A program made the translations under genes and the position numbers. A stretch of DNA of 64,000 nucleotides. Origin: Antedon mediterranea. Lineage: Eukaryota > Echinodermata > Crinoidea > Comatulida > Antedonidae. The notes under the pieces are model-generated. The model was not told where the DNA came from. It ran no database searches and saw only the letters and a list, made by a program, of their open reading frames with translations. Below are positions 42,171 to 64,000 of the stretch, piece by piece; the stretch's first letter is position 1; each line of letters opens with the position of its first letter. The stretch covers positions 1,431,001-1,495,000 of the forward strand of contig NC_092677.1 in assembly GCF_964355755.1 (NCBI RefSeq). Direction: 5' to 3'.

Positions 42171-42557
42171 GGAATATGTCTTTTTGAGGAGTGGTTGTTT
42201 GTTGCCAATTGTTCTTGTATTTGGTAAGTACCAGGCTTTAATATTTTGTGGGTGCTACTAAGAAAACATTTGGTTTTGTATTTTTGGTAAACACATTTAA
42301 AATCCTCATATACATAAGTAGGCCTACATTTCCATCATTATTTGAAATACAAATAATACAATCATGCGTTTTATGTTATTTCCGTATTATAGAGGTGGTT
42401 CAAACTTAAGTCGACAATTAAAGAAAAAACTAATAATTTAAAATTAAATTCCCGTTGTCTGTGTTTGCGCGGGTGTGTCGATTTGATATCCTGCCGGACC
42501 ACATAGTTTGGTTTGTGAAACCAGAACAGAAAACGATAATAGAGAGAATGCACATTC

Positions 42558-43869
42558 CAGGGGCGCAGCCAGCAAAGAATTAATGGGGGGGTCAACCAAT
42601 ATGCGAGTATTTTGCGAGCGAAGCGAGCAACCATGGGCTGGGGGCCAGGGGGCCGCCAAGGGCCCCCGGTTGGGGTCCAGGGGGCGAAGCCCCCTGGAAG
42701 CTTTGGCGGTCTAGCGCAATCTAGATCATTTGAATCGGTTTACGCACACACAAATATGACAATGTTAACACTAATAAACTGAAACAAAGAAAACAAAAAC
42801 AACTCTCATTTTCATTACAGAACATTCCAGGCTGCCACAGACAAACACTTTTTTTCTTGCTTGTTTGTTGATTTGTGTAGAGAGGCTGTAAACTCAGAGG
42901 AGGAATTATTTGAATTCCTCCTTTTTCACAAATACAAAAGTTGCATGAAATGAACGCAGAGTTGCAAAAGTTTGAAAAAAGAAATTAGAATGATAGCATG
43001 GAGTGATATTATTAAATGAGAACCTTAAGGTTAGAGTTCATACACTGTGCAAGTCCAAGAAGCTATCTTGGCTCCGTGTGTATGTGAGACGCTTATCATA
43101 CCCAGTACATACAATATTTTGTTTAAAAATATACCTATTTTGTTCGAATGTATAGTATAGGTGATAGCTTATACATAATTGTAATAACTAACTTCTAAAT
43201 TATTATCATACATTTTACGTTAGTTACTATAACGGCGCTCTAGACATCGCGTGATGCATCTTTAAACATAAGTTTGGAACATTCTTCTCGGCTTGGAGAC
43301 AGAATTCGCGAATGACATTCTCTGTATTAATGTTCATGTTAAAGTGTATGTTCATGAGGCACAATCCCGAAAGCTGCTCATAAGACATGTGATTTCGCAA
43401 ACAGGTTTTCGTTCTCCACAAAGTCGAAAAACTCCGCTCAGCAGACGTTACGGGAATTGGCCTACGCGATTAGAAGAAGTGAACGCACATTCGGAAACAC
43501 ATCTGGATCCGCTAATTTTACACAGTCGCTTCTTCCATCACTGAAGCTCGGAATGAAGATGTTCGTGTCTTGGCAGATCATCGCACCAAATTCAAGTTCC
43601 TTGAAGACTTCTTCAACATTACACTTCACGATAGACTCGGGTGCTACGCCAAATATTTTAAAGCATGACCTGTTATCGGAAGAAAAACGGGTTTTTAACT
43701 CGGTTTGTAAATGATCAAGAAGTTGATTTGGTAATAGTGCTCGGTAGTAATCTTCCACAGTATCTCCAGGATGATTTGATCTGTATTGTTGTCTCATGTT
43801 TTTATTTATTTTTTCAAAAAAAAAGGGGGGGTCAGGACCCCCGTGACCCCCCCACTGGCTGCGCCCCTG
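42558..43869 (-). mobile_element. hAT element inserted in G1 intron 1
   Basis: The termini CAGGGGCGCAGCCAG (42558) and its inverse CTGGCTGCGCCCCTG (ending 43869) are typical hAT-type TIRs. CATTC flanks both sides (42553-42557 and 43870-43874), a possible short target duplication. The interior retains only the 3' part of a transposase on the minus strand, so the element is non-autonomous. The G3 intron shows the empty site (ATGCATTTACTAGAATTT, about 51800). Confidence 0.8.
43227..43860 (-). pseudogene. hAT transposase C-terminal remnant
   Basis: The minus strand first gives a segment like the middle-to-late part of DUF4371/ZMYM-type hAT transposases (DYYRALLPNQLLDHLQTELK). After a frameshift near 43465 it gives IPVTSAERSFSTLWRTKTCL and LRNHMSYEQLSGLCLMNIH, the hAT C-terminal dimerisation region. 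The N-terminal zinc finger and most of the catalytic core are absent. Confidence 0.75.
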
Positions 43870-45890
43870 CATTCACTAGAATTTTATTTTGTTTTTGTCG
43901 TCTTTCTGATTTTAACACTTTGCAGCACAATGTTATATTTCAAAACCAAGTAACGTAGCGTATTTTAGTTTCAGATACAAGTGCCCAAATACAAGTGTCA
44001 GTGGATGCTGGTACAGCGAGAGAGTTTGACAATGTAACAATGGTGTGTACTCCATCATTTCTGTCAGGAGATTCATTGGTTCAACTGGCTTGGACAAAAG
44101 CTGATGAGAATGGTCAACAAGTAGGAAGTGGTCTTGTAAGTTCTCCACGACAATCATCCAATGCTCGATACAGTTTGTCCAATAATAATCTTATAATAAC
44201 TGATGTTGAACGAGGTGATGCAGGCAACGTTGTGCTGTTAGCACCAATCTTGCAAATCCTGGTGAAAACTTTGCAGAACTCGCAGTCAATTGTGAGTACA
44301 GTATAGTAGAATGTTATGAATATGCAATTATTTCTTCAAATACAATAAATAAGTGGGAGGATGATACTGTATTTTAGACATTATAATTTGTTTATGTTTA
44401 ATGTAAGAACATTTGGAAATACAAGCTACAGTAATTGCTTTGTGTTAATTTATTTTAAACAAGTAGGCCTAGTGTATTTTGTTATTGATTTCATTTGTCA
44501 GATAATTGTGAGTATAAAGTAAATTATGATGAATATTTGTAATTTGCACATTTCTTCAAATTATAATCAATTTTTGTCAGAATTTCAAAGCGAGATGATG
44601 ATGCTTAGAAATATACTTATACAGTACTGTATTAAAAGCTTAGACTTATCAATGTTGTTGAAAAAAATAATTATTTGAAAATGTTTTGTCTTGAATGTTT
44701 AGACATACAATACTGTACTTGTCGATAAATAGTATTGTGTAGCAATTGAAACATTTAATCACAAATTATTATCAAATTTATCCTAAAAATAAAGTTGTGT
44801 TTGTGGTAATACATGAGTATTTTAAACATTGTTATGTAAGTTTTCCATGAACAGATCTTGACAACCCAGATTTGAAGCTAATGTCTAACGATGATGAAGC
44901 AGCAACATTTAAATGTACTGAACCTGATGGATTCCCAACACCGATTACCATCACATGGATCAAAGATGACGTCATACTTGATTTGTCTGATACACAAAAG
45001 TATCCAACTTCTAATGCAACATTAACGATTGATGACGTTGATGAGACAGATGAGGGAGTTTATCAGTGTAGAGCAGAGAATGCTGCTTACAGTGGAACAG
45101 AAAAAAAACTTAGTAACATTGTTACCCTCATCACATTAGGTTGGTACGATTGGAATCAAATAGTTTCATAACTGTTAATTGATACAATGAATACATACTA
45201 TATATAAACATACATTTCGTTCTTTCGGGTCGTGTTTTCTCTACCACAAATAATTTGTCTTTGTTCCTACATGATATGGATAGCACTGGTGAGCTAACAC
45301 AACAAAAACGGAACACTTTAGGCCTAATTGTTTTTTGTTGTTATTATTATTATGCAGGTGTTTTATAATATGAACGCATAATAAGTTTCGATAATAATGC
45401 TTATTTATTTTTTTAGAATTGACGACTACTTCTATATCCAGTAAGTCAACTATAAGTACGTTGCATTGTATTATATTGTAAATTTCCGGGTTTGAACGAA
45501 ATAAAAGTGGAAAGAAGCCACAAAAGAAAAACAAAATTAAAACAAATCTGGGTTTGATTCCCAAATAGACAAGGATGAAAATGTGAACAATTGATGTGAG
45601 CATCTTAAAAGCAACAGCGACGACAATTAGTCAGAATCATTTGTGAGAAGACAAAAAAGGAGAGAAAATATATAAAAAAGGTTCCCTGGATATTTGCTTA
45701 CTTCATACAATTATGAAAACACTGACTAATTCTTTTTCTATCCAATAAACTTTATTTTAAGCAGCAGGCGTACATGTCTTATACTAGAGAGACAGATAAC
45801 AAGGATAGCCACACATACCAAGATTTACAGAAGAAAGACGATAATCAAGCTGTATATATAAATGTTAGAGCAAAGAGGGACAAAAAATAA

Positions 45891-47101
45891 TGCCTCTTAT
45901 TGTTAATGAAATGTCACAGTTTGAAAATTGTTGATTTTAATAATATAACTCAATAATTTATGGGTAAAACTGACAAAATTTAAAATAACAAGAAAAATTT
46001 GAATTCTGCAATTTGTTTAAAAAAAACCCATACACTTTATATCTAGTGCCATTGCCTATGGTGTATAGCAACATGTGATGTAAAGATGAAAACATATGAC
46101 ATATCTAAAAATGTAAATAACAAGATACATTTATACGAATTATATTTCTTGGTCTTTTATTTCGTACTGGAATTGAAATTTGCTTGTAGTTGATTCGTTG
46201 TATATTTGAAGACAACATACAAAGAAAAAATAAGAAACAAAGGAAAATAAGGATTTCCTACACCAACACGCGTTTAAGTTCATATTATTAAAAATTTCTT
46301 TAATTTAATTTCGCCCTCGATTGCATGTTTGGTTGCTTGCTGCCATTTTTTCATAAGTGCATAAGTTCAAAATTATTTTGAAACACATTTCATCGTCTTC
46401 CGTTCAAATGTAGCTTAATGACGGCTGACGCCCTCTACCTCACCCTGTAGCTTTCATTTTCTTACAAAATTGCTACACACTCTTTTAGTCTTCACGCTCA
46501 TTAGGCATTACGAGCAAGTAACGTTACAGGTTGGTTTAATTTATTGTTAATATACTTAATACATAACTTGCCAAACTACTTTCTATTATTCAGCAAATTA
46601 ATTGTCACTATTAAAAATCAAGTATATTGATTCAATCGATATTATACATGAACGATACTGTATGAAGGAAGTAGACATAATAATATATCAAACTATGAAT
46701 GGCAATACACACTCATCACAATAACAGGAACAAACAGTATTTCAATATACATTATAATATACAATAGTGGAATAGTCTTGCTTTGTAGGCCCACTGGCCG
46801 TATTTAAGATTCCTGCTTTAGATTTGTGAAGATGAAGACGGAAATGTAAACATTATAATGTGATATCTTGTTTTTTTTTAACTTTGTGTTTGTAAAATGA
46901 CAGTTCTTTAGAAATATAGGAAATATGTTTGTTTACAAAAAATTAATCTAAACATTGGGCCACCATACAGTATGGAGGAAGTAAACAAAAATGTAAATGA
47001 ATCCTCATTCAGACAATGCAAGAACCATCAGTGTCCTTGAGAGACAAGAGTGATATATAATTTTGGAATTTCAGATTGTTAGGCGTGACCTAACAGAAGT
47101 A
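45891..47101. other. G1-G2 intergenic spacer
   Basis: Homologous along its length to 58403-59544 (G4-G5 spacer), with indels. It contains the presumed promoter of G2 and the 3' end of G1. No further ORF is supported. Confidence 0.6.
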
Positions 47102-49391
47102 ATGTCGATATGTGAGTGTGCACTAATTTTCCTGATTTTCCTAAGCGACTGTAAGTAGAAACTTTGAATATAATTGGTGTAACCAATCATGCATGTTTAT
47201 TAGTAGGGTCATAAAAAAAACATAAAATTATAAGACTAGACTGGCTATGGAGTTTGACGTAGTAACCAATTTTTATTTGAAACGTTGAATATAATTGGTG
47301 TAATCGGTTGTCAAGCATGTTTTCAACATTGCGTTCTAATAATTATTAGTAGGGTCTTACTATTATTTCAACATTTGCTTATAAGACTGAAGTTCAGTGT
47401 TCGGAGAAACCAATTTTATTTTTGTTTTTTTTAATTGATTTGTTTCATTAAATACATTGCCACCCTTTCAATTTTGTATATAGTTATAAATGGTCAAAAT
47501 CCTGTAGTCAGTGTACAAGATGCTAACGTTAAATTAGGTGAGAGCGCTGTTATCTCCTGTAGTCATACACTCAGTGGTACTAGAACTCTGCAGGCTGTTC
47601 AATGGTACAATAGTAATTCAGATGGAGATCAGTTAGACATCCTTGTTAACAGTGCTGAGTCAAATACAAATGGTAGATATACAGTTACTAACACAGCACA
47701 GACTGCTCAAACTGGTGTAGCTACTCTCACCATTGCAAACTCAGTGTTACCTGATGAGGAATATTACCTATGTGGAATTATTGATTCATCTTCTGTGTTT
47801 GGTCAAGATAGTGGAAACCTTACTGTTCACTGTGAGTATGAATAAATCTGTCAAAATTGTATTATAGTTTTAAAATAAATTGCTATTTAAAAAAGGGTAG
47901 CATTCATTTTAATTAAGACAATTGACTTTGTCATTACAGATCTAGAAAACCCTATTTTGGAATCCAACACATTAATTGTCATGATAAATGACACCGCAAC
48001 ATTCACATGTGCTAAATTTATCGGCAAACCAACACCAATTATTGTCAGATGGACAAAGGAGAATGTTGCACTTGATGTTTCTGATGAAGAAAAGTATCCA
48101 TCTTCTGATGCAACATTAACTATTAATAAAGTTGATGAAATAGATGAAGGAAGTTATCGTTGTGTAGCAGAGAATGCTGCTTACAGTGGAGATGAAGGAA
48201 AAGAAAGTAATCCTCTCAAACTCTCAGTGGGTTGTAAGTAAAGTTTATTTATGTAGCTTTTATATTATTATTATTATTCTGATACGGACAAATATCCATC
48301 TTCTGATGCAACATTAATTATTAATAAAGTGAATGAAATGGTAGCAGAGAATGCTGCTTATAGTGGAAATGAAGGAAAACGTAGTAATCCTCTCGAACTC
48401 TCAGTAGGTTGGTTGCAATAAGGTTGTTATAACTAATGATACAATAATATCATTATTTTATTGATATCATAGGTATAATATTATGGAACCAAAGAGTCAA
48501 TCATAATTATACAGAATATTCCAACAATATGTATTATGCGGTAACAGTTACACAGTTTAGTTGTAATAGGCCTTTTTACAATATAGCACAAGTAATATAT
48601 AAAACCAATAGATGCACTGACTATGTTTAAATAACATAATCATATACTTTCTATTTCCTTAGCATTGAGAACAACTTCTTCTACATCCAGTAGGTCAACT
48701 ACACGTACGTTTCATTTGTTTGCATTGCACTAATAGTTTTCCATTTTTAGGCCCTATAATTTTGTGAATAAAAAGTATGACCTTTGTATATTTGTTATGT
48801 CACAATCACATGGTAACTCTGATTCTCCTGAATCTTGCGTGCACAGAAGTTCCAAAGAGTGAGGGCGTGTGCAATTCAACTGGTCTTGTTGTTGGAATGA
48901 CGTTTATTGGTGTGCTCATTGGATTCATTATCTGTTTGATTGTGGTTTTTATTATCAGAAAAATAGAGAAGTCAAAATCGCAGGTAAATTATAATTCAGA
49001 AAGTAGAAAAAAATAGTAAAATAGTCGAAGGTTTAGTGAAATACCGTCACAATTAATGGCAAATGTATTCAATTTACTTTTTGATGTTTTATTTTAAAGA
49101 CACCGACATCAACAAATGACAACCAATCAGGGGTAAGGATGCTATACTTCAACCTTAATTATTCTCTTTCACTTTGATCATTATCATCATTGTAACCAAA
49201 ACACAATAAAGGTTTGCATGATTGTAATTCATCTTACTTTACTGTTGTATTTTTTTTAGCAGCAGGCGTATATGACTTACACTGGAGAGACAGATAAAGA
49301 GGATAACCACACAATATACCAAGATCTACATTATAAAGACGATAATCAAGCTGTGTATGTAAATGTTAAAGCAAAGAAAGACAACAAATAA
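47102..49391 (+). CDS. Ig receptor G2 (beta type), intact, ~338 aa
   Basis: Exons: signal 47102-47150 (MSICECALIFLIFLSD), V-like Ig 47484-47831, C2/I-like Ig 47940-48230 (or 48233), stem 48663-48689 (or 48704), TM 48847-48983, cytoplasmic 49100-49132, tail 49260-49391. Extracellular exons are phase 1-1 and the last two junctions phase 0. The V exon has AVISC, then AVQWY, then DEEYYLC. The second Ig has FTC, VRWTK and DEGSYRC. The TM exon has a ~24-residue hydrophobic span (VGMTFIGVLIGFIICLIVVF) followed by basic residues, so type I topology is expected. The tail has YMTY, IYQDL, an extra HYKD and VYVNV: an ITAM-like pair, plus YVNV, which equals the Shc Grb2-binding motif. Probably a cell-surface immune or recognition receptor; the ligand is unknown. 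A relic of another C2 exon lies in the following intron. Confidence 0.82.
48281..48416 (+). pseudogene. Relic of a second C2/I Ig exon inside G2
   Basis: It aligns with the 3' half of the G5 C2 exon (TATCC.TCTTCTGATGCAACATTA through CTCTCAGTAGGTTGG), but ~20 nt coding the GSYRC segment are deleted and the 5' half is missing. No acceptor fits. A degraded duplicate exon. Confidence 0.75.
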
Positions 49392-49829
49392 TATACATGT
49401 TTAAAATAAAAATGAAATACATACATTATTATTATTATTCTTATTATTAATGAAATACCATTTCATATCTGTAGAAAGTGTTTTCTTTCTCTTGATTTAA
49501 CTCTTTAACGTGTACAAATTTAATAACAAGGAAATGTGAATGCTGCAATTTGTATCATCACTAACAACAAAAAAACCTATATGTACCTATAGTGACATAA
49601 TCTACCAGTGGCATATAGCAACATGTGATGTAAAGATGAAAACCATAGACATAACCCTGTATGAATCGTATGGTACAACTTTTTTTTTTCTATCCGTGGG
49701 CCTAGGCGAAGGTCTAAATCACTAATCAACAATTAAGAGATATGTTTCAAATACAATCTATAATCAAAGAGTAAATTCATTCGTTAAACAACAAAATGCC
49801 GTGACATGAGATGCAAAAGAGAAATCAAT

Positions 49830-51083
49830 TTTGAAATCAATTCAATTCAATTCAATTCAATAATACATTTATTTAAGATGGTCACAATATATAACAAACA
49901 ATATTACAATAAACAATCATAAACAATTAATATAAGACCATCTTGGGATCAAAATTAGAAGTAGAACTTGTCTCACATTGACCCCTAAAATAATAATAAT
50001 AATTCAAACAAAAATAAGAACGGTACCGTATAAATATACAAATACAACGCATACAATTAAATAAATTATACAGTGCGCAACATATTTAGTAGGTTTGGTA
50101 ACAAGATAAATAAAGGATTTTTATATGCTTTCTAAATGAATTTACAGTATATAAATGATTGATGGCAGTTGAATCTAGATTATTCCAATACGTTGGTCCT
50201 AAATAAGTAATAAAAAACTGGCTTTTTCTAAGTTTAACAAATGGAACATACAATTTATGTGGATTTCTTATGTTATAGGTATGATCTAATAAACGATTTG
50301 AAAATAACATTGAAACAGACTTTGGTAGTAAACCAGTAACATATTCAAACATAAAAGAAGTAACTTGAAGTTTATGAAGGTCATATATTTTTAAAATTTT
50401 AAGTTTTTTAAACAAAGGTTCTGATGCAGATGTAGATTGTTCAAAGTTTAATAATCGAACAACACGTTTTTGTAAAATGAAAATTCTTTGTAAATTTGAT
50501 GGATAATCAGCTGCCCATATAATATTGCAATAAAGTAAATGTGGTAATATAAGCGAATTATACAAAGAAAGTAAAATGTGTTGAGGAAAAAAATATTTTA
50601 TCTGGTTTATAACACCAATGCATTTAGACATTTTGATTGAAATATTTTTCTGATGACCGGTCCAATTTAAGTTTTCATTAATTAAAATTCCAAGAAATAA
50701 AGTTTCGCTTTTTCGGTCCAGATTTTTACCATTTAGAACAACCTGAATGTTTTTGTTACTTAATTTATGCCTGTTTCGATGGGAGTGAAATATAATGAAA
50801 TTTGTTTTTGAAGTATTAATCAATAATTTATTAGAAGAGAACCAATTTTCAATCTTATTTAATTCTAAATTAAAGGTATTTACTAATAAATCAATATTTT
50901 TGTTTGAATAAAATAAAGTTGTATCATCGGCAAAGGAAACAATATTCAGTGTATCACTAACAAAGGTTATGTCATTTACGTAAATAAGAAATAATAAGGG
51001 TCCAAGGACCGACCCCTGTGGTACACCACATGGAACGTTCTTTGCCGATGATTTACAGTTACCAATCTGTACATATTGTTTAC
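49830..51083 (-). mobile_element. 5'-truncated LINE insertion with 9-bp TSD
   Basis: The paralogous site downstream of G5 (about 62110-62130) lacks this segment and reads straight through GAGAAATCAATAGCCTATA. Here GAAATCAAT (49821-49829) and GAAATCAGT (51084-51092) bracket 1254 bp. The 3' end on the minus strand is a short (ATTGA)n-like repeat, and the 5' end is truncated within the reverse transcriptase. It postdates the ~12-kb duplication or is unique to this copy. Confidence 0.85.
50086..51075 (-). pseudogene. LINE reverse transcriptase, C-terminal part
   Basis: The minus strand is open from about 51075 to the stop at 50086, without an ATG of its own. It contains VPQGSVLGPLLFLIYVNDI, then SFADDTTLFYS (catalytic FADD box), then the conserved LFLGILINENLNW and HLLYCNIIW segments of the RT thumb. 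The stretch ending at GPTYWNNL is the usual LINE C-terminus. The frame is undamaged, consistent with a recent insertion. The endonuclease and N-terminal RT are missing, so it is non-functional. Confidence 0.85.
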
Positions 51084-51092
51084 GAAATCAGT

Positions 51093-51545
51093 AGCCTATA
51101 ATAACAGTTGACGGCCGTTTAATTAGTATATTAGTACCGTAGCCTATAGGCCTAGTAATGGACCCCATCGTCACCAACAACGGCACCAAAATGCCATTTT
51201 CTTGTTCAAAGAATCATCGTTACTTTTAATGCAGGACACATCAAGTTTGTGCCAATTTCACAATAGCAATTGTTTGAGAAATTAAAGTTTAGACCAAAGA
51301 TGCTTTAGCATCATGAAGTGGCGCCACTCTACGTGGCGCGTTATACGATCTTTGGTTTTAGACTGGGTGTGGCGGGGATAGAGCGAGATAGCTTAAAGAA
51401 CGATGAGGGCGTGTGTAATTAATTCAATCCAGAGCCATCAGATTCAATAAACTCGTATTAGGTCTACTTTCAAAATCTCACAAAACAAGGAAGGACAATT
51501 CGATTTATATTCCGTATTCACTATACTAATAATTCTGTCTTTGTG
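51093..51545. promoter_or_regulatory. G3 upstream region, conserved before G6
   Basis: Nearly identical to 62130-62411 plus 63338-63512 upstream of G6, once the TIR element there is removed. It includes the hairpin-like GTGGCGCCACTCTACGTGGC and the stretch leading to the ATG. Such conservation suggests the shared promoter and 5' UTR. No TATA box or initiator can be assigned with confidence. Confidence 0.45.
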
Positions 51546-53830
51546 ATGATGACTACTTGTTGTTTGCTGCTACTTGTTCTTGTATTTGGTAAGTACCCAG
51601 CTTTAATGTTTTGTTGTCAAACTAAGAAAACATTTAATTTTGTTTGTATTTAAATTACACATTTCCGTCATTTTTTGAAATAAAAATAGTTATACAGTTA
51701 TGTTATTTCCGGATTATAGATGGTGGTTCAAATTTTCAACAATCATAAAAATAAACTATCAAATGAAAGTTATTCCGGTTGTCTGTGTTTCTATGAAAAA
51801 ATGCATTTACTAGAATTTATTATTTTGTTATTATCATAATTCTGATTTAAACACTTTTCAGTATAGGCCTAATATGTCATATTTCACAGACAATCTTAGT
51901 TTCAGATACAAGTTCCCAAACACTAGTGACAGTGAATGCTGGTACAGCAAAAGTTGATGAAGCTGCAACAATGATGTGTACTTATACACTTGTACCAAAT
52001 GATTCATTGCTTCAACTGGTTTGGACAAAAGCAGATGACAATGGTCAAGCAGTAGGAATTGCTCTTGTGACTTCTACAGGAGAAACAAGCAATGGTCGAT
52101 ACAGTTTGTCCAATGATAATCTTATAATAACTGATGTTGTAAGAGAAGATGCAGACAACTATCGTTGTAGCGTTAGCACCAATGGTGGAAATACTGCTGA
52201 AAACTTTGCTAATCTCACGGTCTATTGTGAGTATGTAGCTAATTATGAATGAGTGTTCAAAGTTTTTGAAATGAAAAATATTAAAACTTCAACCCAGCAA
52301 TAAAATAAGACGTTAATACATTTGCATTTAACTTACATTTTACAATTGTTGTGAAAATGTTGCAATGCATACGCAAAATAGGCCTCCTGATTTGTTCGTT
52401 ATGTAGTCATGAATGAACATGTTTGCATTACCAGATCTTGAAGAACCAGTTCTGAATCCAACAAAGTTGTCTGTCAACGCAACAGAAACAGTGACATTTA
52501 CATGTTCTAACCTTATTGGTGTACCAGCACCAATTACCGTCACGTGGATCAAAGATGACGTCATACTTGATTTGTTTGATACAATAAAGTATCCGTCTTC
52601 TGATACAACATTGACGATTAATGACGTTGATGAATCAGACGAGGGCGTTTATCAGTGTAGAACAGAGAATGCTGCTTATAGTGGAACAGATGGAAAACTT
52701 AGTAATACTGCCACACTGTCAATAGGTTGGTGGAATAAACATTTTGATAAATAATATATTTTATTAGCATCATTGTATACGTATTTTCTGCATGTCCTAA
52801 TTAGTCATAGTCATAGTCATATATACTTTATTGTCCATTTAAAAAACAGAAATGTGATTTGAAAACTGGCAAAATACAAAAATATAAAATACAATTTACA
52901 AAAACACACACAAAAAGTTAAGAGGCTAAAAATTGTTAAAATTAGATAAAAATTATTATTATTTAATTATATTATATGATTTATTATTATATTGAACTAA
53001 CGATGATTTAAAGTTTATATATTATAAATTATAAATGGAATATTCATATTACAGTATATTATGTCATGCGGTAATAAAAAATAAAGCACATACACAGCGA
53101 AATCTGAACGTTTCAGATTTATTTAGTTATAAATGGCCTTTTGTAATATGAACGCATGGCGTGTTTTAGGCTACTAAATATTGCTTGTTTTTTATTTCTT
53201 TAGCATTGACAACAACATCTTTTATATCCAGTAAGTCAACAACACGTAGGTTCTGTTTGTTTGCATTGTATTGTAAATTCCCGGGTTTTTGCATTTGCGA
53301 AAAGAAAATAAGGATATAAATGGAAAGGGATATCCCCGCTTCATTCCATGATCTGTATGAGTGCTTAAAAAGGAAAATAAGTATGACCTTTATATATTTG
53401 TCAACACTAACTTATTGTAAACATGTTTAAAACACATGGTAACACTAATCCTTCTGTATTATTTGTTCAGTTTTAAGTACAGAAGTTTCAAACAGAGAGA
53501 ATGATTGTAATTCAACTGGTCTTGTTGTAGGAATGATGTTTGTTGGTGTGCTTATTGGATTCATTATATGTTTGCTTGTGGGTTTTATCATCAGCAAAAT
53601 AAGGAAGTCAAATTCACAAGTAAAGTATAATTCAGAAAGTAGAACCAAAAGCAAAAGTGTAGACTTAAAATGACCAAAGGTTTAATGAAATACCGCACAC
53701 TTCAGTAATGGAAACTATTTTAACATTAAATATTATGTTTTATTTTGAAGGTACCGACATCGAAAAACACCAACCAATCAGGGGTAAGGATGCCATACTT
53801 CAACTTTAAGTATTCACTTTACTCATTATT

Positions 53831-53862
<32 letters not shown>

Positions 53863-54081
53863 TATTATTATTATTTCACCAATATATCAATAAAGGTTTA
53901 CACGATTTTCATTCTTCTTTTTCCATGCACTAAACTTCTTAATTTTTTGTAGCAGCAGGCGTATATGACTTATACTGGAGAGATAGATAAAGAAACAAAC
54001 CACACATACCAAGATTTACAGAAGAAAGACGATAATCAAGCTGTATATGTAAATGTTAAAGCAAAAAAGGACAAAAAATAA
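51546..54081 (+). CDS. Ig receptor G3 (alpha type), intact, ~326 aa
   Basis: Exons: 51546-51588 signal (MMTTCCLLLLVLVF), 51906-52226 V-like Ig, 52435-52725 C2/I-like Ig, 53204-53230 stem (alternative end 53245 adds five codons), 53483-53619 TM, 53751-53783 (11 codons), 53953-54081 tail. All junctions have GT/AG and agree in phase. V domain: C39, W54, and DADNYRC ending C102. Second Ig: C145, W159, C196 in DEGVYQC. The hydrophobic span lies at about residues 237-260, followed by SKIRKS. Tail: Y288 and Y291 (YMTY), Y303 (YQDL), Y316 (YVNV). Spacing YxxL, nine residues, YxxV approximates an ITAM; YVNV matches a Grb2 SH2 ligand. Likely a type I surface receptor. This is the cleanest member of the array. 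Confidence 0.87.
53836..53868. repeat. (ATC)n microsatellite in the last intron of G3
   Basis: A run of ATC trinucleotides followed by ATT repeats, directly after the 11-codon exon. Confidence 0.95.
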
Positions 54082-54892
54082 TATACATGTTTAAAATATA
54101 AAAATAAAAGAAATACATTATTATTATTCCTATTATTAATGGAATATCATTGGTTTGAAACTACAATCACATACATCTTGTTGATTTTGTTATAGAATAT
54201 AGAATATATCCAAAATATTTATAATCTAAATAAACTTGTAACTAACACTTTTATGTTTCGTCTTACTAATAAAACATTACCACCTTATAGTTTGTTCTTT
54301 ATTTACTAACGCATCCGAGCTCCACTCATATAATACACGATTCTCCCAGACAAATTTATTAAGCGATCTATCAAATTCTAAACTCAGACGCTCTTCAATT
54401 CTGTACAATGGCCCAAAATTATGGAAAAATATCCCCCCTTCTTTAAAAAATAAACATCTCTTTCATCATTTAAATATCATTATAAAAACCTCTTGGTCTC
54501 AGTGAATGGTGAGTAGTCTCCTCTTTCCTTCTTTTTATATTTTTTTGTATTGGATTTAAAGAGTTTTAAATGAATTGTAAATTATTTATATTTGGATTTA
54601 CATAATATATTCTAAAATTTTTTACTATATTTCTTAATTTTATTTATTTATTTGGTTAACTTGGTGGTCGGTCTGTAATCTGATCGACTCCTGTTACAAT
54701 TAATGGTTTCTAACTTGAACGCTTCATTTGTTTTATCATTTTCGTATATTTATCTGTAATTATTGTTTAAAATAATATACATGTTTAAAATATAAAAATA
54801 AAATAAATACATTATTATTATTATTCTTATTATTAATGGAATATCATTGGTTTGAAACTACAATCACATACATCTTGTTGATTTTATTATAG
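54075..54892 (+). mobile_element. LINE 3'-end insertion flanked by ~120-bp direct repeats, 3' of G3
   Basis: 54075-54197 and 54769-54892 are near-identical. G5 carries this sequence once (about 61508-61635). Between them, about 54270-54690 encodes NGPKLWKNIPPSLKNK and ends ...KTSWSQ-stop, the usual C-terminal end of a non-LTR ORF2. Either the LINE inserted with a very long target duplication, or a local duplication occurred around it. Confidence 0.65.
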
Positions 54893-55888
54893 AAATAAAG
54901 AGAAATCATAACCTGTAGAAAGTGTTTTCTTTCTCTTGATTTAACTCTTTAACGCGTACAAATTTAACAACAAGGAAATGTGAATGCTGCAATTTGTAAC
55001 ATCATTAACAAAAAAAACCTCTATGTACCTATAGTGACATAATCTACCAGTGGTATATAGAAACATTTGATGTAAAGATGAAAACCATAGACATACTTGA
55101 AAAATGTAAAAAAAGATAATTATGTAACTAACAACGATACATTTATTAAAAAACTGTATTTCTTGTTTTGATTTGTTTTAATTAAACCTTGCTTGTACAA
55201 GACCAACTTTGATTTGTTACTGAATTTAAAGTTTGAATGCATTAGTACATTGACATATAATGACTATTCCAGCATAAGAAGGAAAATAAACTAGAAAATC
55301 AATTCTTTTAATACGCGTGTAATTGTATTATTGTTATATAGCGTTCTTTAGTTTAATTCGCCTCGAGATATTGGTTGCTTGCTGCCATATTTTATACAAA
55401 GAATTGAGTAAGTTCAAATTAATTTTGAAACGGAATATTTAGATTCCTGGGAATTGGAACAGGACTTTAAAGTATGTGGGTGCGATTTTTATTTTGTTAA
55501 TGATTTTTAAACACATTTAAGAAATACTCCAGTTTGAGTTTGCACTGTTTTGAACTACAATACAATTTAATAATAATCACGTGTTTTATGATTTTATTTT
55601 AAATAATTTATACTATTTAGAAAATTAATTTGATCATCTAGATTTAGACGGAAGTACAGTGCACTATAATTATGAAGGAAGTAAAACTAATATATCACAA
55701 GTATGAACGGCAATTAATCTCAATCATAACAACGACAGGAACAACAACAACAGTATACAATACAGTAGAGTGTGGTAGAGTGCAAGACAATAATAGTGAA
55801 ATAGTCATCACCTAATAAAGCGGAAAATAAATGTATTATTGAATTATTGAATTGAATTGAAAAGATTTCCATATTCTATAGAATTGCG
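54893..55888. other. G3-G4 intergenic spacer
   Basis: No gene is supported. 54975-55245 is the Ig 3'-flank module that also occurs at 8838-9105. From about 55260 it resembles the region left of G1 (42090). Confidence 0.5.
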
Positions 55889-58402
55889 ATGAAGGCGAAA
55901 TGCACAAGTGCGATGATACACCTGATTATTCAACTTTGTGGATGTAAGTACAAATATTAAATTTCTTTTTTTCACAAAATGACGCAATCGTAAATCGTTA
56001 TTTGTTAGCTTGTTCGATTTGGTTTCAGGTACAAGTGCACAAACACCAGTGACAGTGGATGCTGCTAAAGTCAAAGAGTTTGAAAATGTAACAATGGTGT
56101 GCACTTATATATTTCTGATAGGAGATTCATTGCTGCAACTGGGTTGGTCAAAAACTGATGACAATGGTCAACAAATAGGACCTGCTCTTGTGGTTTCTAC
56201 AGGACTAACAACCAATGGTCGATACAGTTTGTCCAATAATAATCTTATAATAACTGATGTTGAACGAGGTGACGCAGACAACTATCGTTGTGCTGTTAGC
56301 ACCGTTAATGGAAATCCTGGTGATGACTCTGCAGAACTCGCAGTCATTTGTAAGTAGTAGATGATGCATTTTGTACAACATTTTCAAACAAGATGTCTTA
56401 GTAATCTCTGTAATCTCCATTTAAATTGTATGACTTTCAAAGTGAGATAATGCTTAGAAGTATCTTTATATTTAGACTGGACAATCAGATGTCAGATGTA
56501 ATATTGCATTTCACTTTTGATATTTGTCAGCAAACTGTAGGCCTATATGTAAATATGAATAAGGAACATAATACACTTGTAAACAGCTTAATTGGGTGAC
56601 TATTTTCTAGTGTAGTGGATGATCCTAATATGTTTAAGTACATGTTTTATGGTTTAGTTTTATTTTTTAAATTTTATTTTTTTAAATTATTGTTATAATT
56701 CCGTAAAGACGAAAGTACATAAAATGTTAATTCAAAAAATTAATAAAATATACTTCTAACTTATAATTACTTTGTGAGTAAAACATAAATAAAACATTTC
56801 AGTTGATACTATTGTGTAGCAATACAAAACGTGGCTATCATAAAAATATATCATGACAATACAGCCAGTTATAGGTACCTTATATTTAAGGATATTACAT
56901 TTAATATTTAAAAAGTATTTTAAAATCGTTAAATGTAAATTGTCTATACACAGATCTTGACAACCCAGGTTTGAAGCTAATGTCTAACGATGATGAAGCA
57001 GCAACATTTAAATGTACTGAACCTGATGGATTCCAAACACCAATTAGCATCACATGGATCAAAGGGGTGACATCACACTTGATGTGTGTGATACACAAAA
57101 GTATCCGTCTTCTGATGCAACATTAACGATTGATGACGTTGATGAGACAGATGAGGGAGTTTATCAGTGTAGAGCAGAGAATGCTGCTTACAGTGGAACA
57201 GAAAAAAAAACTTAGTAACATTGTTACCCTCATCACAGTAGGTTGGTACGATTGGAATCAAATAGTTTCATAACTGTTAATTTATACAATGAATACATAC
57301 TATATATAAAGAGACATTTCATTCTTTCGGATCGTGTTTTCTCTACCACAAATAATTTGTCTTTGTTCCTAAATGATATGGATAGCACTGGTGAGCTAAC
57401 ACAACAAAAAGGGAACACTTTAATTGTATTTTGTTGTTTTTGTTATTATTATGTAGGTGTTTTATGATATGAACGCATGATAAGTTTCGATAATAATGCT
57501 TATTTATTTTTTTAGAATTGACGACTACTTCTATATCCAGTAAGTCAACTATAAGTACGTTGCATTGTATTATATTGTAAATTTCCGGGTTTGAACGAAA
57601 TAAAAGTGGAAAGAACCCACAAAAGAAAAGAAAACATTAAAACAAATCCGGGTTTGATTCCCAAACAGACAAGCATGAAAATGTGAACAATTGATGTGAG
57701 CATCTTAAAAGCAACAGCGACGACAATTAGTCAAAATCATTTTTGAGAAGACATACAAGGAGAGAAAATATATACAAAGGTTCCCTGGATATTTGCTTAC
57801 TTCATACAATTATGAAAACACTGACACAGTACTACTATTTGTTCAGTTTTAAGTACTCCAGAAGTTCCAAAGAGTGAGGGCGTGTGTAATTTAACAGGTC
57901 TTGTTGTTGGAATGATGTTTGTTGGTGTGCTCCTTGGATTCGTTCTCTGTTTGCTGGTGGGTTTTATCATCAGCAAAATAAGGTCACATGCACAGGTAAA
58001 GTATAATTCAGAAAGTAGAACAAAAAAAGCAAAATAGCCAAGGTTTAGGGAAATACTGTACACTGCACATATAGTGTGTAGAAATATACATTAAATGTAT
58101 TTGTTGATGTTTTATTTTAAAGGCACCGACATCGAAAAACGCCAACCAATCAGAGGTAAGGATGCCATACAACTTTCAATACTAATTTTCACTCGTCATT
58201 ATCATTATAATTGTCACCAATAAAGGTTTATACGTTTCTAATTCTTTTTCTATCCAATAAACTTTATTTTAAGCAGCAGGGGTATATGACTTACACTGGA
58301 GAGACAGATAACAAGGATAGCCATACATACCAAGATCTACAGAAGAAAGAAGATAATCAAGCTGTATATCTAAATGTTAAAGCAAAGAAGGACAAACAAT
58401 AA
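55889..58402 (+). pseudogene. Ig receptor G4 (alpha type) with broken second Ig exon
   Basis: Exons: signal 55889-55943 (MKAKCTSAMIHLIIQLCG), V-like 56029-56349 (TMVC, LGWSK, DADNYRC; intact), C2/I-like 56954-57241, stem 57516-57539 (or 57554), TM 57862-57995, cytoplasmic 58123-58155, tail 58274-58402 (YQDL and YLNV). Relative to G1, the C2 exon has +2 nt near 57065 and +1 nt in the poly-A near 57210. The net length is a multiple of three, but a stop arises in between (about 57128). All other exons are clean. Because the broken exon is phase 1-1, skipping it would give an in-frame one-Ig receptor. Pseudogene, exon-skipping gene and sequencing error are all possible. Confidence 0.75.
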
Positions 58403-59544
58403 TGCATCTTATTGTTAATGAAATGTCACAGTTTGAAAATTGTTGGTTTTAATAATATAACTCAATAATTTAGGGGTAAAACTGACAAAATAATTAATTA
58501 ATTAATTTAAAATAACAAGAAAAATTTGAATTCTGCAATTTGTTTAAAAAAAAACCATACACTTTATACCTAGTACCATTGCCTATGGTGTATAGCAACA
58601 TGTGATGTATAGATGAAAACCATAAGACATATCTAAAAAACAAGATACATGTATACGAATTCTATTTCTTGGTCATTATTTCGTACTGAAATTAAAATTT
58701 GCTTGTAGTTGAATCGTTGAATATTTGAAAACAACATACAAAGGAAAAATAAAGATTTCCTACACCAACACGCGTTTAAGTCCATATTATAAAAGTGTTC
58801 TTTAATTTAATTTCGCTCTCGATTGCTTGTTTGGTTGCTTGCTGACATTTTTTCATAAGTGCATAAGTTCAAAAATATTTTTTCCCTGTAGCTTTCATTT
58901 TCTTACTAAATTGCTATACACTCTTTAGTCTTCACGCTTATTAGACATTACAAGCAACTATCGTTACTGGTTGGTTCTATTTTTTGTTAATTTAATACAT
59001 AACTTGTCAAACTACTTTCTTTTATTCAGTAAATTAATTGTCACTAATAAAAACGGTCAGGTATATTGATTCAATCGATATTAGACATGAACGATACTGT
59101 ATTGAGGAAGTAGACATAGTAATATATCAAAGTATGAATTCACACTCATAACAATAACAGGAACAATCAGTATTTCAATATACATTATATACAATAGTGG
59201 AATAGTTCTGCTTTATATTCCCACTGGTCGTATTTAAGATTTCCTGCTTTATAGATTTGTAATAAAGACGGAAATGTAAACAAGATATGTGATATCTTGT
59301 TTTTTTTTCAACTTTGTGTTTGTAAGAAGACAGTTATTTAGAAATATAGGAAATATGTTTTTTCACAAAAAAATAATCTAAACATTGGGCTACCATACAG
59401 TATGGAGAAAGTAAATAAACATTTAAATCAATACTCATTCAGACAATACAAGCCCATCAGTGTCCTGTATATACTATTGAGAGACAAGAGTCAAAGTATC
59501 ATTTTTGATTTTTAGATTGTTTAGGCGTGACTTTAACAGAAGTA

Positions 59545-61513
59545 ATGGCGATATGTGAGTGTGCACTCATTTTCTTGATTTTCCAATGCGACTGTAAGTA
59601 GAAACTTTGAATATAATTGGTGTAACCAATCATGCATGTTTATTAGTAGGGTCCTACTATGGTTTCAACATAAAATTATAAGACTGGCTATGGAGTTTGA
59701 CGGCGTAACCAATTTGTATTGTATTGTTTGTATTAATTGATTTGTTTCATTAAATACATTGCCACCCATTCATTTTCTGTGTATATAGTTATAAATGGTC
59801 AAACTCATCCTCTTATCAATGTACAAGATGCTAATGTTAAATTAGGTGAAGATGCTGTTATCACCTGTGATTACACACTCAGTGGTACAAGAACATTTAA
59901 TGCTGCTCAATGGTACAATAGCAATTCAGACGAAAACCCACTTGTTAAAACTGCAGTGTCAAATCAAAATGGTAGATATACAGCTGATACCTCATTCACA
60001 AGCTGGTGTAACTACTCTCACCATTGCAAACTCAGTGTTGTCTGATGATGGACACTATAGGTGTAGAATTTTTGATTCGTCTATTTTATCTGGTGAAAAC
60101 AACGGAAATCGTACTGTTCAATGTAAGTAGGAATAAATCTACGAATGACATACTGTAGATTTAAGTCATTCAAAAAAATAGGCAATCATCATTTTAATAT
60201 AAAGACAATTGATTTTGTCAATACAGATCTGGAAACCCCCGTTTTGAAGTCGAACACATTATCTGCCATGATAAATGACACCGCAACATTTACATGTACT
60301 AAACTTATCGGTGAACCAAAATCAATTACTGTCAGATGGACAAAAAATGATGCTACGCTAGATATTTCTGATACAGACAAATATCAGTCTTCTGATGCAA
60401 CATTAATAATTAATCAAGTAGATGAAATGGACGACGGAAGTTATCGGTGTGTAGCAGAGAATGCTGCTTACAGTGGAGATGAAGGAAAGCCTAGTAATCC
60501 TCTTATACTCTCAGTAGGTTGGTTGCAATAAAGTTGTTATAACTAATGATACAATAATATCATATTTTATTGAGATCATAGGTATAATATAGTCTATCAT
60601 AATTAGACGGAATATTCCAACAATTATGTATTATGCGGTAATGGAAATAAAGCACAGCTACACAGTTTAATTATAAAAGGCCTTTTTATAATAATATTAA
60701 TAGAACAAGAAAATATATAAAACCAATAGATGAACTGACTATGTTTAAATAACATAATCATATGTACTTTCTATTTCTTTAGCATTGACGACAACTTTTT
60801 CTACATCCAGTAGGTCAACTACACGTACGTTTTGTTTGTTTGCATTGCACTAATAGTTTCCTATTTTTAGGTTTGCGAATAAAAAATATGACTATTGTAT
60901 ATTTGTTATGTCACAATCACATGGTAACTCTGATCCTCTTGATTTGTACATCGTTCGTACACAGAAGTTCCAAATAGTGAGGATGTATGTACTTCAACTG
61001 GTCATGTTGTTGGAATGACGTTTGTTGGTGTGCTCATTGGATTCATTTTCTGTTTGATTGTGGTTTTCATCATCAGCAAAAAAAGGACGACAAAATCACA
61101 GGTAAAGTATAATTCAGAAGGTAGAAAAAAAATAGTAAAATAGTCGAAAGTTAAGTGAAATACCGTCACACGTAATGGCAAACGTATTATTATTCAATTT
61201 ACTTTTTGATGTTTTATTTCAAAGGCACCGACATAAATAAATGACAACCAATCAGGGGTAAGAATGCTATACTTCAACCTTAATTATTCGCTTTCACTTT
61301 AATCATTACCATTATTGTCACCAATACACAATAAAGGTTTGCATGATTGTAATTCATCTTACTTTACTGTTGTATTTTTTTTAGCAGCAAGAGTATATGA
61401 CTTATACTGGAGAGACAGATAAAGAAACAAACCACACATACCAAGATTTACAGAAGAAAGACGATAATCAAGCTGTATATGTAAATGTTAAAGCAAAGAA
61501 GGACAAAAAATAA
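59545..61513 (+). pseudogene. Ig receptor G5 (beta type) with V frameshift and tail stop
   Basis: Exons: signal 59545-59593 (MAICECALIFLIFQCD), V-like 59789-60122, C2/I-like 60227-60517 (intact: FTCTK, VRWTK, DDGSYRC), stem 60783-60809 (or 60824), TM 60965-61101, cytoplasmic 61225-61257, tail 61385-61513 (YQDL, YVNV). The V exon is 334 nt and breaks frame near 59995; the rest of the domain (TTLTIANS, DDGHYRC) is in another frame. The 11-codon exon reads APT then TAA, which would remove the tyrosine tail unless this 33-nt phase 0-0 exon is skipped. Two independent lesions favour a true pseudogene. Confidence 0.75.
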
Positions 61514-62411
61514 TATACATGTTTAAAATAAAAATGAAAGAAATACATTATTATTATTATTCCTATTATTAATGAAACACCATTGGTTTAAAACTACATG
61601 AATGACATACCTCTTGTTGATTTAATTATAGAAATAAAGAGAAATCAAAATCTGTAGAAAGTGATTTCTTTCTCTTGATTTAACTCTTTAACGCGTACAA
61701 ATTTAATAACAAGGAAATGTGAATGCTGCAATTTGTATCATCATTAACAAAACAAAACCCTCTATGTACCTATAGTGGCATAATCTACCAGTGGTATAGA
61801 GCAACATATGATGTAACGATGAAAACAATTAAAATAACCCTGTATGGATCGTATGGTACAACTTTTTTTTTTCTATCCGTGGGCCTAGGCGAAGGTCTAA
61901 ATCACTTGGATCTACCAATGGGTTCTGTAATAAAAAGTGTTACTTTGCTTTTATATGAGTTCTTGTTTATCAGTATGAGTCCAACTCCCAATAAATGTCC
62001 AAATATTGTCAAATAATAACAACAATTAAGAGATATGTTTCAAATACAATCTATAATCAAAGTGTAAATTCATTCGTTAAACAACAAAATGCCGTGACAT
62101 GAGATGCAAAAGAGAAATCAATAGCCTATATAATTAACAGTTGACGGCCGTTTAATTAGTATATTAGTACCGTAGCCTATAGGCCTAGTAATGGACCCCA
62201 TCGTCACCAACAACGGCACCAAAATGCCATTTTCTTGTTCAAAGAATCATCGTTACTTTTGATGCAGGACACATCAAGTTTGTGCCAATTTCACAATAGC
62301 AATTGTTTGAGAAATTAAAGTTTAGACCAAAGATACTTTAGCGTTATGAAGTGGCGCCACTCTACGTGGCGCGTTATACGATCTTTGGTTTTAGACTGGG
62401 TGTTGCCGGGG

Positions 62412-63337
62412 AGCGATTTTTTTTTTCGTACATAAGTTGGGGACCCCCTCATGAAACGTCACAAAATAAATATGAATAATTCATCAGTTCAATTTTTGTT
62501 GTTCGGTGTGCACCCAAGCGTATAGCAACAAGAAGTGATTACACAAGTGCGGTACGATTCTAGGCCTATCTCCGCTGTTGTTGCGGCGTGCGATTTCATA
62601 GAAGAATAGCAGCGTTTTGTGTGGATTGTCGAAATAATCAGCCTTTAGTTTATGGTGTTTTTAATATAATTTATTACTAAAGAATTACGTGTTAACATTA
62701 TAGTTTCTATTAATACTATTAGGCCTAATTATTAGTCTCTAAACCCATGTCTATTCTAGTGTAGTAGCTGTGTGGATGTGTGTGACGTGTGTGTGTTAGG
62801 TATGACACAATCCGAGTAATAAGTCAGCAAAATTAAACAATAAACATTACACAAAAATAAATGTTTTATTCTCGTGGGTCTAATCTAATCTTCTCATCTC
62901 ATGTGTTCATATACGCGCATTTTTAAAGTTCCTTTGAGTACATGTATATTGTTTGATAATAAAATAGCAGAATTAAAAAAATACAGTAAACAAATTATAC
63001 ACATTCTATATTCTTGTGGGTCTAAGCTTTCTTTGGGCTATGTCCAATGAATTACTACTTAGTTTAATGTCTTGCCTAGCTGTCGATTAGCTTCGACTCG
63101 ACACATTTTGCATAGTGGTGGTGTGTGTGAAGAAGAGTGCGCGAAGGCAATCGCGTGAATTGACTTAGAATACTAGGCCTACTGTGTAGAAAGTATTGTA
63201 TCGCAGTTGTGTAATCACTTCTTGTTGCTATACGCTTGGGTGCACACGGAACAACAAATTTAACTGATGAATTATTCATGTTTATTTTGTGACGTTTCAT
63301 GAGGGGTCCCCAACTTATGTACGAAAAAAAAATCGCT
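62412..63337. mobile_element. Long-TIR (foldback) element, 926 bp, with GCCGGGG TSD
   Basis: The ends AGCGATTTTTTTTTTCGTAC and its inverse start near-identical arms of about 150 bp (through CACCCAAGCGTATAGCAACA and GAAGTGATTACACAA). GCCGGGG flanks both sides (62405-62411 and 63338-63344). The G3 upstream region at about 51370 shows the uninterrupted site. No transposase is encoded. It separates the G6 promoter-like region into two parts. Confidence 0.85.
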
Positions 63338-63512
63338 GCCGGGGATAGAGCGAGATAGCTTAGTGAACGATGAGGGCGTGTGTAATTAATTCAATCCAGA
63401 GTCATCAGATTCAATAAACTCGTATTAGGTCTACTTTCAAAATCTCACAAAACAAGGAAGGACAATTCGATTTATATTCTGTATTCACTATACTAGTAAT
63501 TCTGTCTTTGTG

Positions 63513-64000
63513 ATGATGACTACTTGTTGTTTGCTGCTATTTGTTCTTGTATTTGGTAAGTACCAGGCTTTAATGTTTTGTGGTCAAACTAAGAAAACAT
63601 TTAATTTTGTATTTTTGGTAAACACATTTTCCGCATTGTTTGAAATACAAATAATTATACAGTCATGCGTTTTATGTTATTTCCGGATTATAGATGGTGG
63701 TTCAACTTTATTTTATTTATTTTATTTTATTTCATCAAAACCAACAGCAACGAAAGTTGCCACTTAGGCCTAAAGATATGAAACAGAAAACAGATACAAC
63801 TGTAGTAAAAATGAGCCTATTGAGCACAATTATTGAAAAAAAGAATGCAATGAGTCATAAATGAAGAATAACTATTGAAAAAAATATCAACATTTACATT
63901 TGACTCACTTAAATAGTTGTAAGCCTACAAAGAAGGCAAGCGTGTCTGAAACCCCCTTTTCGAGACATTTACTCTATTAAACGGAACATAAAAAGTGGAC
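63513..64000 (+). CDS. Ig receptor G6, first exon and part of intron 1 (truncated by window)
   Basis: 63513-63555 encodes the same signal peptide as G3 (MMTTCC, then a Leu/Val-rich core) and ends at TTTG-GTAAGT in phase 1. The upstream 170 bp and the start of intron 1 also match G3. The V exon and everything after would lie beyond 64000. By position it is the duplicate of G3. Confidence 0.7.
63706..64000. mobile_element. Possible insertion in G6 intron 1
   Basis: The match to the G3 intron stops after GATGGTGGTTCAA. A TTTTA-repeat tract and unrelated AT-rich sequence follow to the window end. A pentanucleotide tail could be the 3' end of a minus-strand LINE, but no coding sequence is visible. 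Confidence 0.35.

Follow-up and report, generated by a model that had tools for sequence, protein, structure and literature searches.

What kind of protein is encoded by an array of immunoglobulin (Ig) genes on contig C8 (NC_092677.1) of Antedon mediterranea, and what would it recognize? The array was studied in a stretch of 64,000 nucleotides (nt; the window, C8:1431001-1495000) of an assembly of 354 Mb in 18 contigs; positions without a contig prefix are those of the window. A sequence-only reading of this DNA had placed here five consecutive genes on one strand and the start of a sixth. This tandem arrangement was confirmed: five gene copies on the plus strand (G1 to G5) are followed by the signal exon of G6 (63513-63555), and no receptor gene of the family was found in the first 42 kb of the window. 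To place the exons, the sequence was read manually and homology among the copies in one assembly was used; copy counts, which were taken from exon searches, are lower bounds. The genes belong to a large, clustered, and partly dead family of transmembrane (TM) receptors with a V-set and an I-set domain and one conserved tyrosine tail. The explanation that we favor, with a probability of about 0.6, is that these are germline-encoded, lineage-expanded type-I recognition receptors, variable outside the cell and served by one shared phosphotyrosine pathway; their role would probably lie in immunity or in self/non-self discrimination.

Two of the copies are complete. G2 (47102-49391) and G3 (51546-54081) encode type-I receptors of 343 and 331 amino acids (aa), respectively, and both follow a seven-exon plan (signal, V-set, I-set, stem, TM, 11-codon, and tyrosine tail exons) with GT-AG splice sites and intron phases 1-1-1-1-0-0. 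The plan had been described as common to all five genes; it is whole in G2 and G3, but is broken in G1, G4, and G5, and G1 is short of two exons. The signal-like exon of G1 has no in-frame ATG, a 4-nt deletion shifts its V exon, and the TM and 11-codon exons are absent; G1 is a pseudogene. All seven exons are kept in G4, with a frameshift in the I-set exon that leads to an internal stop. In G5 the V exon is frameshifted and the 11-codon exon contains an in-frame TAA. The sixth gene extends beyond the window, where its V, I-set, TM, and tail exons are all open (C8:1495439-1497372). Judged by their open exons, three of the six window copies look functional. The lesions, read from one assembly, could partly be sequencing errors.

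The V-like and C2/I-like character ascribed to the two Ig exons was borne out by Pfam. The V-set model matched G2 with 56.7 bits (cut-off 26 bits), and the I-set model matched G2 and G3 with 58.3 and 63.2 bits, respectively (cut-off 23.7). The V-set core Cys-Trp-(D)xxYxC is present; among 20 V exons C25, W40, D90, and C96 are invariant, and Y94 is kept in at least 90%. By domain composition, receptors of the G2/G3 type are V-set plus I-set members of the Ig superfamily. A fold model of the G2 V exon, made with 20 family sequences, reached a predicted local distance difference test score (pLDDT) of 91.9. Its nearest solved fold was TCR V-alpha (Z 14.6, root-mean-square deviation 2.5 over 104 residues), followed closely by PD-1 and CRIg, and sequence profile and fold together matched TCR V-alpha, TIM-3, JAML, pIgR, and PD-1. 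Since many V-set folds score alike, the match indicates a V-set domain and gives no hint of the ligand. No match for the family was found in NCBIfam. The best matches of the I-set exons were Robo, contactin, and titin, and the V model also matched Ig domains of DIP and SynCAM. Both observations would suit a local expansion of rapidly evolving molecules for cell adhesion, gamete recognition, or wiring that have tyrosine-regulated tails (SynCAM-, DIP-, or nectin-like). We regard this origin as unlikely, given ~60 near-identical tails in one array, the pseudogenization of half of the window copies, and the 33% identity of V domains between classes.

The tail had been called ITAM-like. Its four tyrosines sit in Y-x-x-Y, TYQDL, and YVNV, and Y4, Y7, Y19, Y32, Q20, and N34 do not vary among 37 distinct tails. 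The pattern YQDL-x9-YVNV (or E/I/L variants) was found in 36 of the 37, always with the Y-x-N. The earlier name holds in a loose sense: the tail is not a strict immunoreceptor tyrosine-based activation motif (ITAM; Yxx[LI]-x6-8-Yxx[LI]), because its spacer has 9 residues and YVNV stands in place of the second Yxx[LI] (36/37 tails). The strict inhibitory counterpart (ITIM; [SIVL]xYxx[ILV]) was also rejected, since in the tails listed the residues two before the tyrosines are Q, M, H (T in G2), and A. At C8 0.63 and 1.03 Mb the tails of distant relatives have the form TYQDL-x8-YVNV, with a spacer of 8 and still YVNV as the second motif, and those on C6 have TYQE[LI]-x9-YVNV. When eight tails from the C8 array, C8 0.63/1.03 Mb, and C6 were compared (in G2 numbering, one residue longer than that of the 37 tails), Y4, Y7, T18, Y20, Q21, K26, Y33, N35, and V36 were kept in 8/8.

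On C6 the tail is found beneath another kind of ectodomain. At C6:1005200-1010200 (minus strand), fibronectin-III (FN3) exons (Pfam 37-47 bits for three of them) precede TM and tail exons in the right order; the TM exon is 57% identical to that of G3 (E 1.6e-5, genome scale) and the tail 55% (E 0.001). Because FN3 exons precede a matching TM and tail, the same signaling module appears to have been re-used as a cassette under a different ectodomain. A second tail of that type was seen at C6:1030355-1030471, 25 kb from the FN3 receptor. In the C8 array, the first ~17 intron bases after the TM exon (GTAAAGTATAATTCAGA) are nearly invariant in all copies (e.g., 48984-49013). A short alternative tail, formed by read-through of this intron and open in all copies, was considered and rejected; identities by codon position of 0.83, 0.74, and 0.74 give no sign of coding.

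In the mechanism that we propose, the V-set domain atop the I-set domain would bind something outside the cell, and a short stem and one TM helix would link this ectodomain to the nearly uniform four-tyrosine tail. Clustering by ligand could lead to phosphorylation of the tail by Src-family kinases, after which SH2 proteins would dock; ~53 SH2 exon matches were found in the genome. The motif pYxN is a docking site for the SH2 domains of Grb2 and Gads, and YVNV is present in LAT, an adaptor that has no Ig ectodomain. The invariant Y-V-N-V of the C8 tail would fit this site type of LAT/CD28-type adaptors, and docking of Grb2/Gads is predicted. Proteins with tandem SH2 domains, of the Syk or SHP type, could bind to the YQDL...YVNV pair. 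Diversity would arise as genes are duplicated and V exons exchanged, not by somatic change.

The two ends of the receptor differ in their pattern of variation. Three classes of V exons (A, B, and C) can be told apart, with mean amino-acid identities of 72% within and 33% between classes. Tails are 91.5% identical both within and between V classes, and TM exons 83% within and 80% between. V class predicted I-set similarity (0 of 2000 permutations reached the observed difference) and, weakly, TM similarity (44/2000); its relation to tail similarity was not significant (137/2000). Pooled ratios of nonsynonymous to synonymous divergence (dN/dS; Nei-Gojobori, pairwise on related sequences and so approximate) were 0.25 (tail), 0.70 (TM and I-set), and 0.79 (V exons), with 0.92 for V within class A. 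Constraint is relaxed outside the cell and strong inside. Median synonymous divergence (dS) over all pairs was 0.59 for V vs. 0.15 for TM and tail. A simple 5'-to-3' gradient of dS was rejected: within a class, dS is similar across exons and V divergence is not above that of other exons, and the contrast lies between V classes. The plain reading would be that the V classes are old and that gene conversion or recent exchange has kept the TM-tail cassettes beneath them similar.

How large is the family? The G3 tail exon matched 62 places (~60) with E < 1e-4 (best E 2.5e-21), all on the plus strand of C8:1.117-1.629 Mb; weaker matches were found at C8 0.63-1.09 Mb and on C6. This many tail exons in one 0.51-Mb stretch is far beyond chance. 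Their number also excludes a conserved single-copy adhesion gene, one of the two outcomes that the sequence-only reading had named as fatal to its proposal. A search with the I-set exon returned the same C8 cluster and a weaker second stretch at C8 4.70-5.78 Mb. Sixteen genes of the contiguous 179 kb around the window (C8:1381001-1560000) have their V, I-set, TM, and tail exons all open.

Duplication is seen at two scales. Because G1-G2-G3 match G4-G5-G6 in the same order (88-97% identity, offsets mostly ~12.1-12.5 kb, and 11.0-12.0 kb around the G3/G6 promoter), the window contains a duplicated three-gene block. A separate pair of 22-kb blocks (C8:1381001-1402740 and 1512296-1536133), 97-98% identical, may have arisen by recent duplication or may represent a haplotype left over in the assembly. 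Pseudogenes, the three-gene block, and the 22-kb copy support the birth-and-death evolution that had been suggested for this multigene family. The 22-kb pair could be two haplotypes and the frameshifts could be sequencing errors, as expected if much of the array were a dead repeat or an artefact of assembly in which haplotype copies had been placed in tandem. This we consider very improbable: V and I-set exons of the window genes differ by 5-42%, the copies sit in different neighborhoods, and the tail dN/dS of 0.25 across copies indicates selection on the protein.

Has such a family been described before? A literature search found no description of the C8 receptors, although its coverage was incomplete and this is not proof of absence. 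Vertebrate Ig clusters (CEACAM, Siglec, CD300/pIgR-like, KIR/LILR) also have tandem V/C2 receptors, phase-1 Ig exons, short cytoplasmic exons, tyrosine motifs, and birth-and-death evolution; in the C8 family, however, no paired activating and inhibitory tails, no strict ITAM or ITIM, and no one-to-one orthologue were found. In organization, the nearest described systems are two from invertebrates. The fester co-receptors (FcoR) of Botryllus schlosseri, 53 loci in the fuhc locus, share the large cluster, type-I topology, variable-type and C2-type Ig domains, TM segment, tyrosine-motif tail, and churn of gene content, and their tails are able to use ITAM/ITIM-pathway proteins (PMC12065747). FcoR proteins have, in addition, a sushi domain, two C2 domains, 520-610 aa, ITIM/hemITAM and core YxxI/L/V motifs, and a pairing with fester genes (PMC12065747), whereas the C8 receptors have one V and one I-set domain, a uniform YQDL-x9-YVNV tail, and no partner gene that we saw. 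No sushi domain was found by Pfam in G2 or G3, and at 108 nt the V to I-set intron of G2 is too short to hold a sushi exon. With one I-set exon, no sushi domain, and 343 and 331 aa, the C8 receptors are not FcoR. The Alr of the Hydractinia allorecognition complex are likewise clustered single-pass V-set plus I-set receptors (at least 41 loci) with pseudogenes and ITAM/ITIM-like tails (PMC11999971, PMC11067881, PMC12065747); Alr proteins have low overall mutual identity, in contrast to the near-invariant TM-tail cassette of the C8 family. The VCBPs of amphioxus and Ciona also use V-type Ig domains in invertebrate recognition, but are secreted and carry a chitin-binding domain (PMC4757023). The C8 receptors have a TM exon and a cytoplasmic tail, and the Pfam scan of G2 and G3 detected no chitin-binding domain; they are not VCBPs.

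Two forms of the recognition role may be distinguished. As pathogen-recognition receptors of blood or coelomic cells, every V class and gene copy would bind microbial or damage ligands and the shared tail would trigger phagocytosis or activation. Large copy number, pseudogenes, and block duplications agree with this, as do the constrained tail and the free V domain, and there is a precedent in oyster CgIgIT2, an Ig receptor with an ITAM that binds microbes and signals in hemolymph (PMC11999971). The V domains are not, however, closer to one known binder than to others, and we rate the immune role as possible, at somewhat less than even odds. As allorecognition receptors, polymorphic V domains would compare self and non-self when individuals or colonies touch and would decide between fusion and rejection. 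Botryllus FcoR and Hydractinia Alr likewise show clusters of V-type Ig receptors that have tyrosine tails, turnover of gene content, and duplicated blocks (PMC12065747, PMC11067881), and the 22-kb block pair would fit; FcoR has ITIM and hemITAM members, whereas one tail type only was found here. Allorecognition seems a rather improbable function. Several points weigh against recognition receptors as a whole. All sampled tails are of one type, and the activating/inhibitory pairing of known allorecognition systems was not seen; the same anatomy would be expected of a rapidly evolving family for adhesion, gamete recognition, or neural wiring; and V dN/dS is near 1, not clearly above it, which leaves diversifying selection unsupported.

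Exon positions are given in Table 1.

Table 1. Exons of the six receptor genes, in window positions
Feature	Position	Strand	Support
G1 signal exon, degenerate, no in-frame ATG, homologous to G3/G6 signal exons	42181..42223	+	
G1 V exon, class A, frameshifted by 4-nt deletion	43975..44291	+	
G1 I-set (C2-like) exon, open	44855..45139	+	
G1 stem exon	45417..45455	+	
G1 tyrosine tail exon; TM and 11-codon exons missing upstream	45762..45890	+	
G2 signal exon	47102..47150	+	
G2 V-set exon, class B	47484..47831	+	Pfam and structure model
G2 I-set exon	47940..48230	+	Pfam
G2 stem exon	48663..48704	+	
G2 transmembrane exon	48847..48983	+	
G2 11-codon exon	49100..49132	+	
G2 tail exon, QQAYMTY...TIYQDL...AVYVNV	49260..49391	+	
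G3 signal exon	51546..51588	+	
G3 V exon, class A	51906..52226	+	
G3 I-set exon	52435..52725	+	Pfam
G3 stem exon	53204..53245	+	
G3 transmembrane exon	53483..53619	+	
G3 11-codon exon	53751..53783	+	
G3 tail exon	53953..54081	+	
G4 signal exon	55889..55943	+	
G4 V exon, class A, open	56029..56349	+	
G4 I-set exon, frameshifted, internal stop	56954..57241	+	
G4 stem exon	57516..57554	+	
G4 transmembrane exon	57862..57995	+	
G4 11-codon exon	58123..58155	+	
G4 tail exon	58274..58402	+	
G5 signal exon	59545..59593	+	
G5 V exon, class B, frameshifted	59789..60122	+	
G5 I-set exon, open	60227..60517	+	
G5 stem exon	60783..60824	+	
G5 transmembrane exon	60965..61101	+	
G5 11-codon exon, in-frame TAA	61225..61257	+	
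G5 tail exon	61385..61513	+	
G6 signal exon; beyond the window, V exon at C8:1495439 and tail at C8:1497247	63513..63555	+	

Other V-set exons were observed elsewhere in the assembly. Large stretches of them, of different V types, lie at C8:380000-710000 and 4700000-6150000, and a few weak tail matches (C8 0.63-0.70 Mb) fall within the former. At least ~20 near-identical V-set exons of two alternating types occupy C8:5122566-5141930 (minus strand); in the part read (C8:5134001-5137000) they are ~0.5 kb apart with no I-set exon between them. The exons could serve as tandem cassettes for alternative splicing, or they could encode a protein of many domains. V-set receptors that have three Ig domains, a TM segment, and a tyrosine-rich tail in one long open frame of ~640-660 aa were seen at C11 15.9 Mb and C2 37.0 Mb, with a coding part apparently free of introns. 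Additional V-set matches were found on C3 and C7, and at C8:2338474 a V-set exon adjoins a long glycine/proline-rich repeat frame (GMNPGTGGFNPGTG...). Within the array, a tandem repeat at C8:1502766-1508340 has a period of ~797 bases and about seven copies at 99% identity. By eye, a fragment of a reverse transcriptase of the long interspersed element (LINE) type was noted between G2 and G3 (50086-51087, minus strand), as were several long open frames resembling parts of DNA-transposon proteins at 10306-14454 (minus strand). In the ribosomal DNA (rDNA) at C2:15921380, 18S is matched only over ~400 bases at its 3' end and is followed by unrelated sequence, which suggests an insertion or a truncated rDNA copy. 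Judged by its contig sizes, the assembly has about 11 chromosomes plus small scaffolds; its GC content is about 32%, and no mitochondrial contig was recovered with COX1. PF01341, a marker of the tunicate cellulose synthase-GH6 protein, had no match in it, although the controls were also silent.

A bolder extension of the recognition reading, which we hold to be doubtful, is a modular system. A near-fixed TM-signaling cassette, homogeneous over ~60 genes, would receive exchanged ectodomains (the V classes and the FN3 ectodomain of C6), and together with the other V-rich stretches of C8 the array would form a complex like the natural-killer (NK) complex or an allorecognition complex, none of which has been described in this lineage.

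If the recognition role is true, another animal lineage would have a large germline repertoire of V domains on one phosphotyrosine tail. The family would then bear on whether signaling of the ITAM type preceded antigen receptors, and on the origins of self/non-self discrimination. The homogenized tail beneath diversified V exons offers a clear and testable picture of how variation is separated from signaling.

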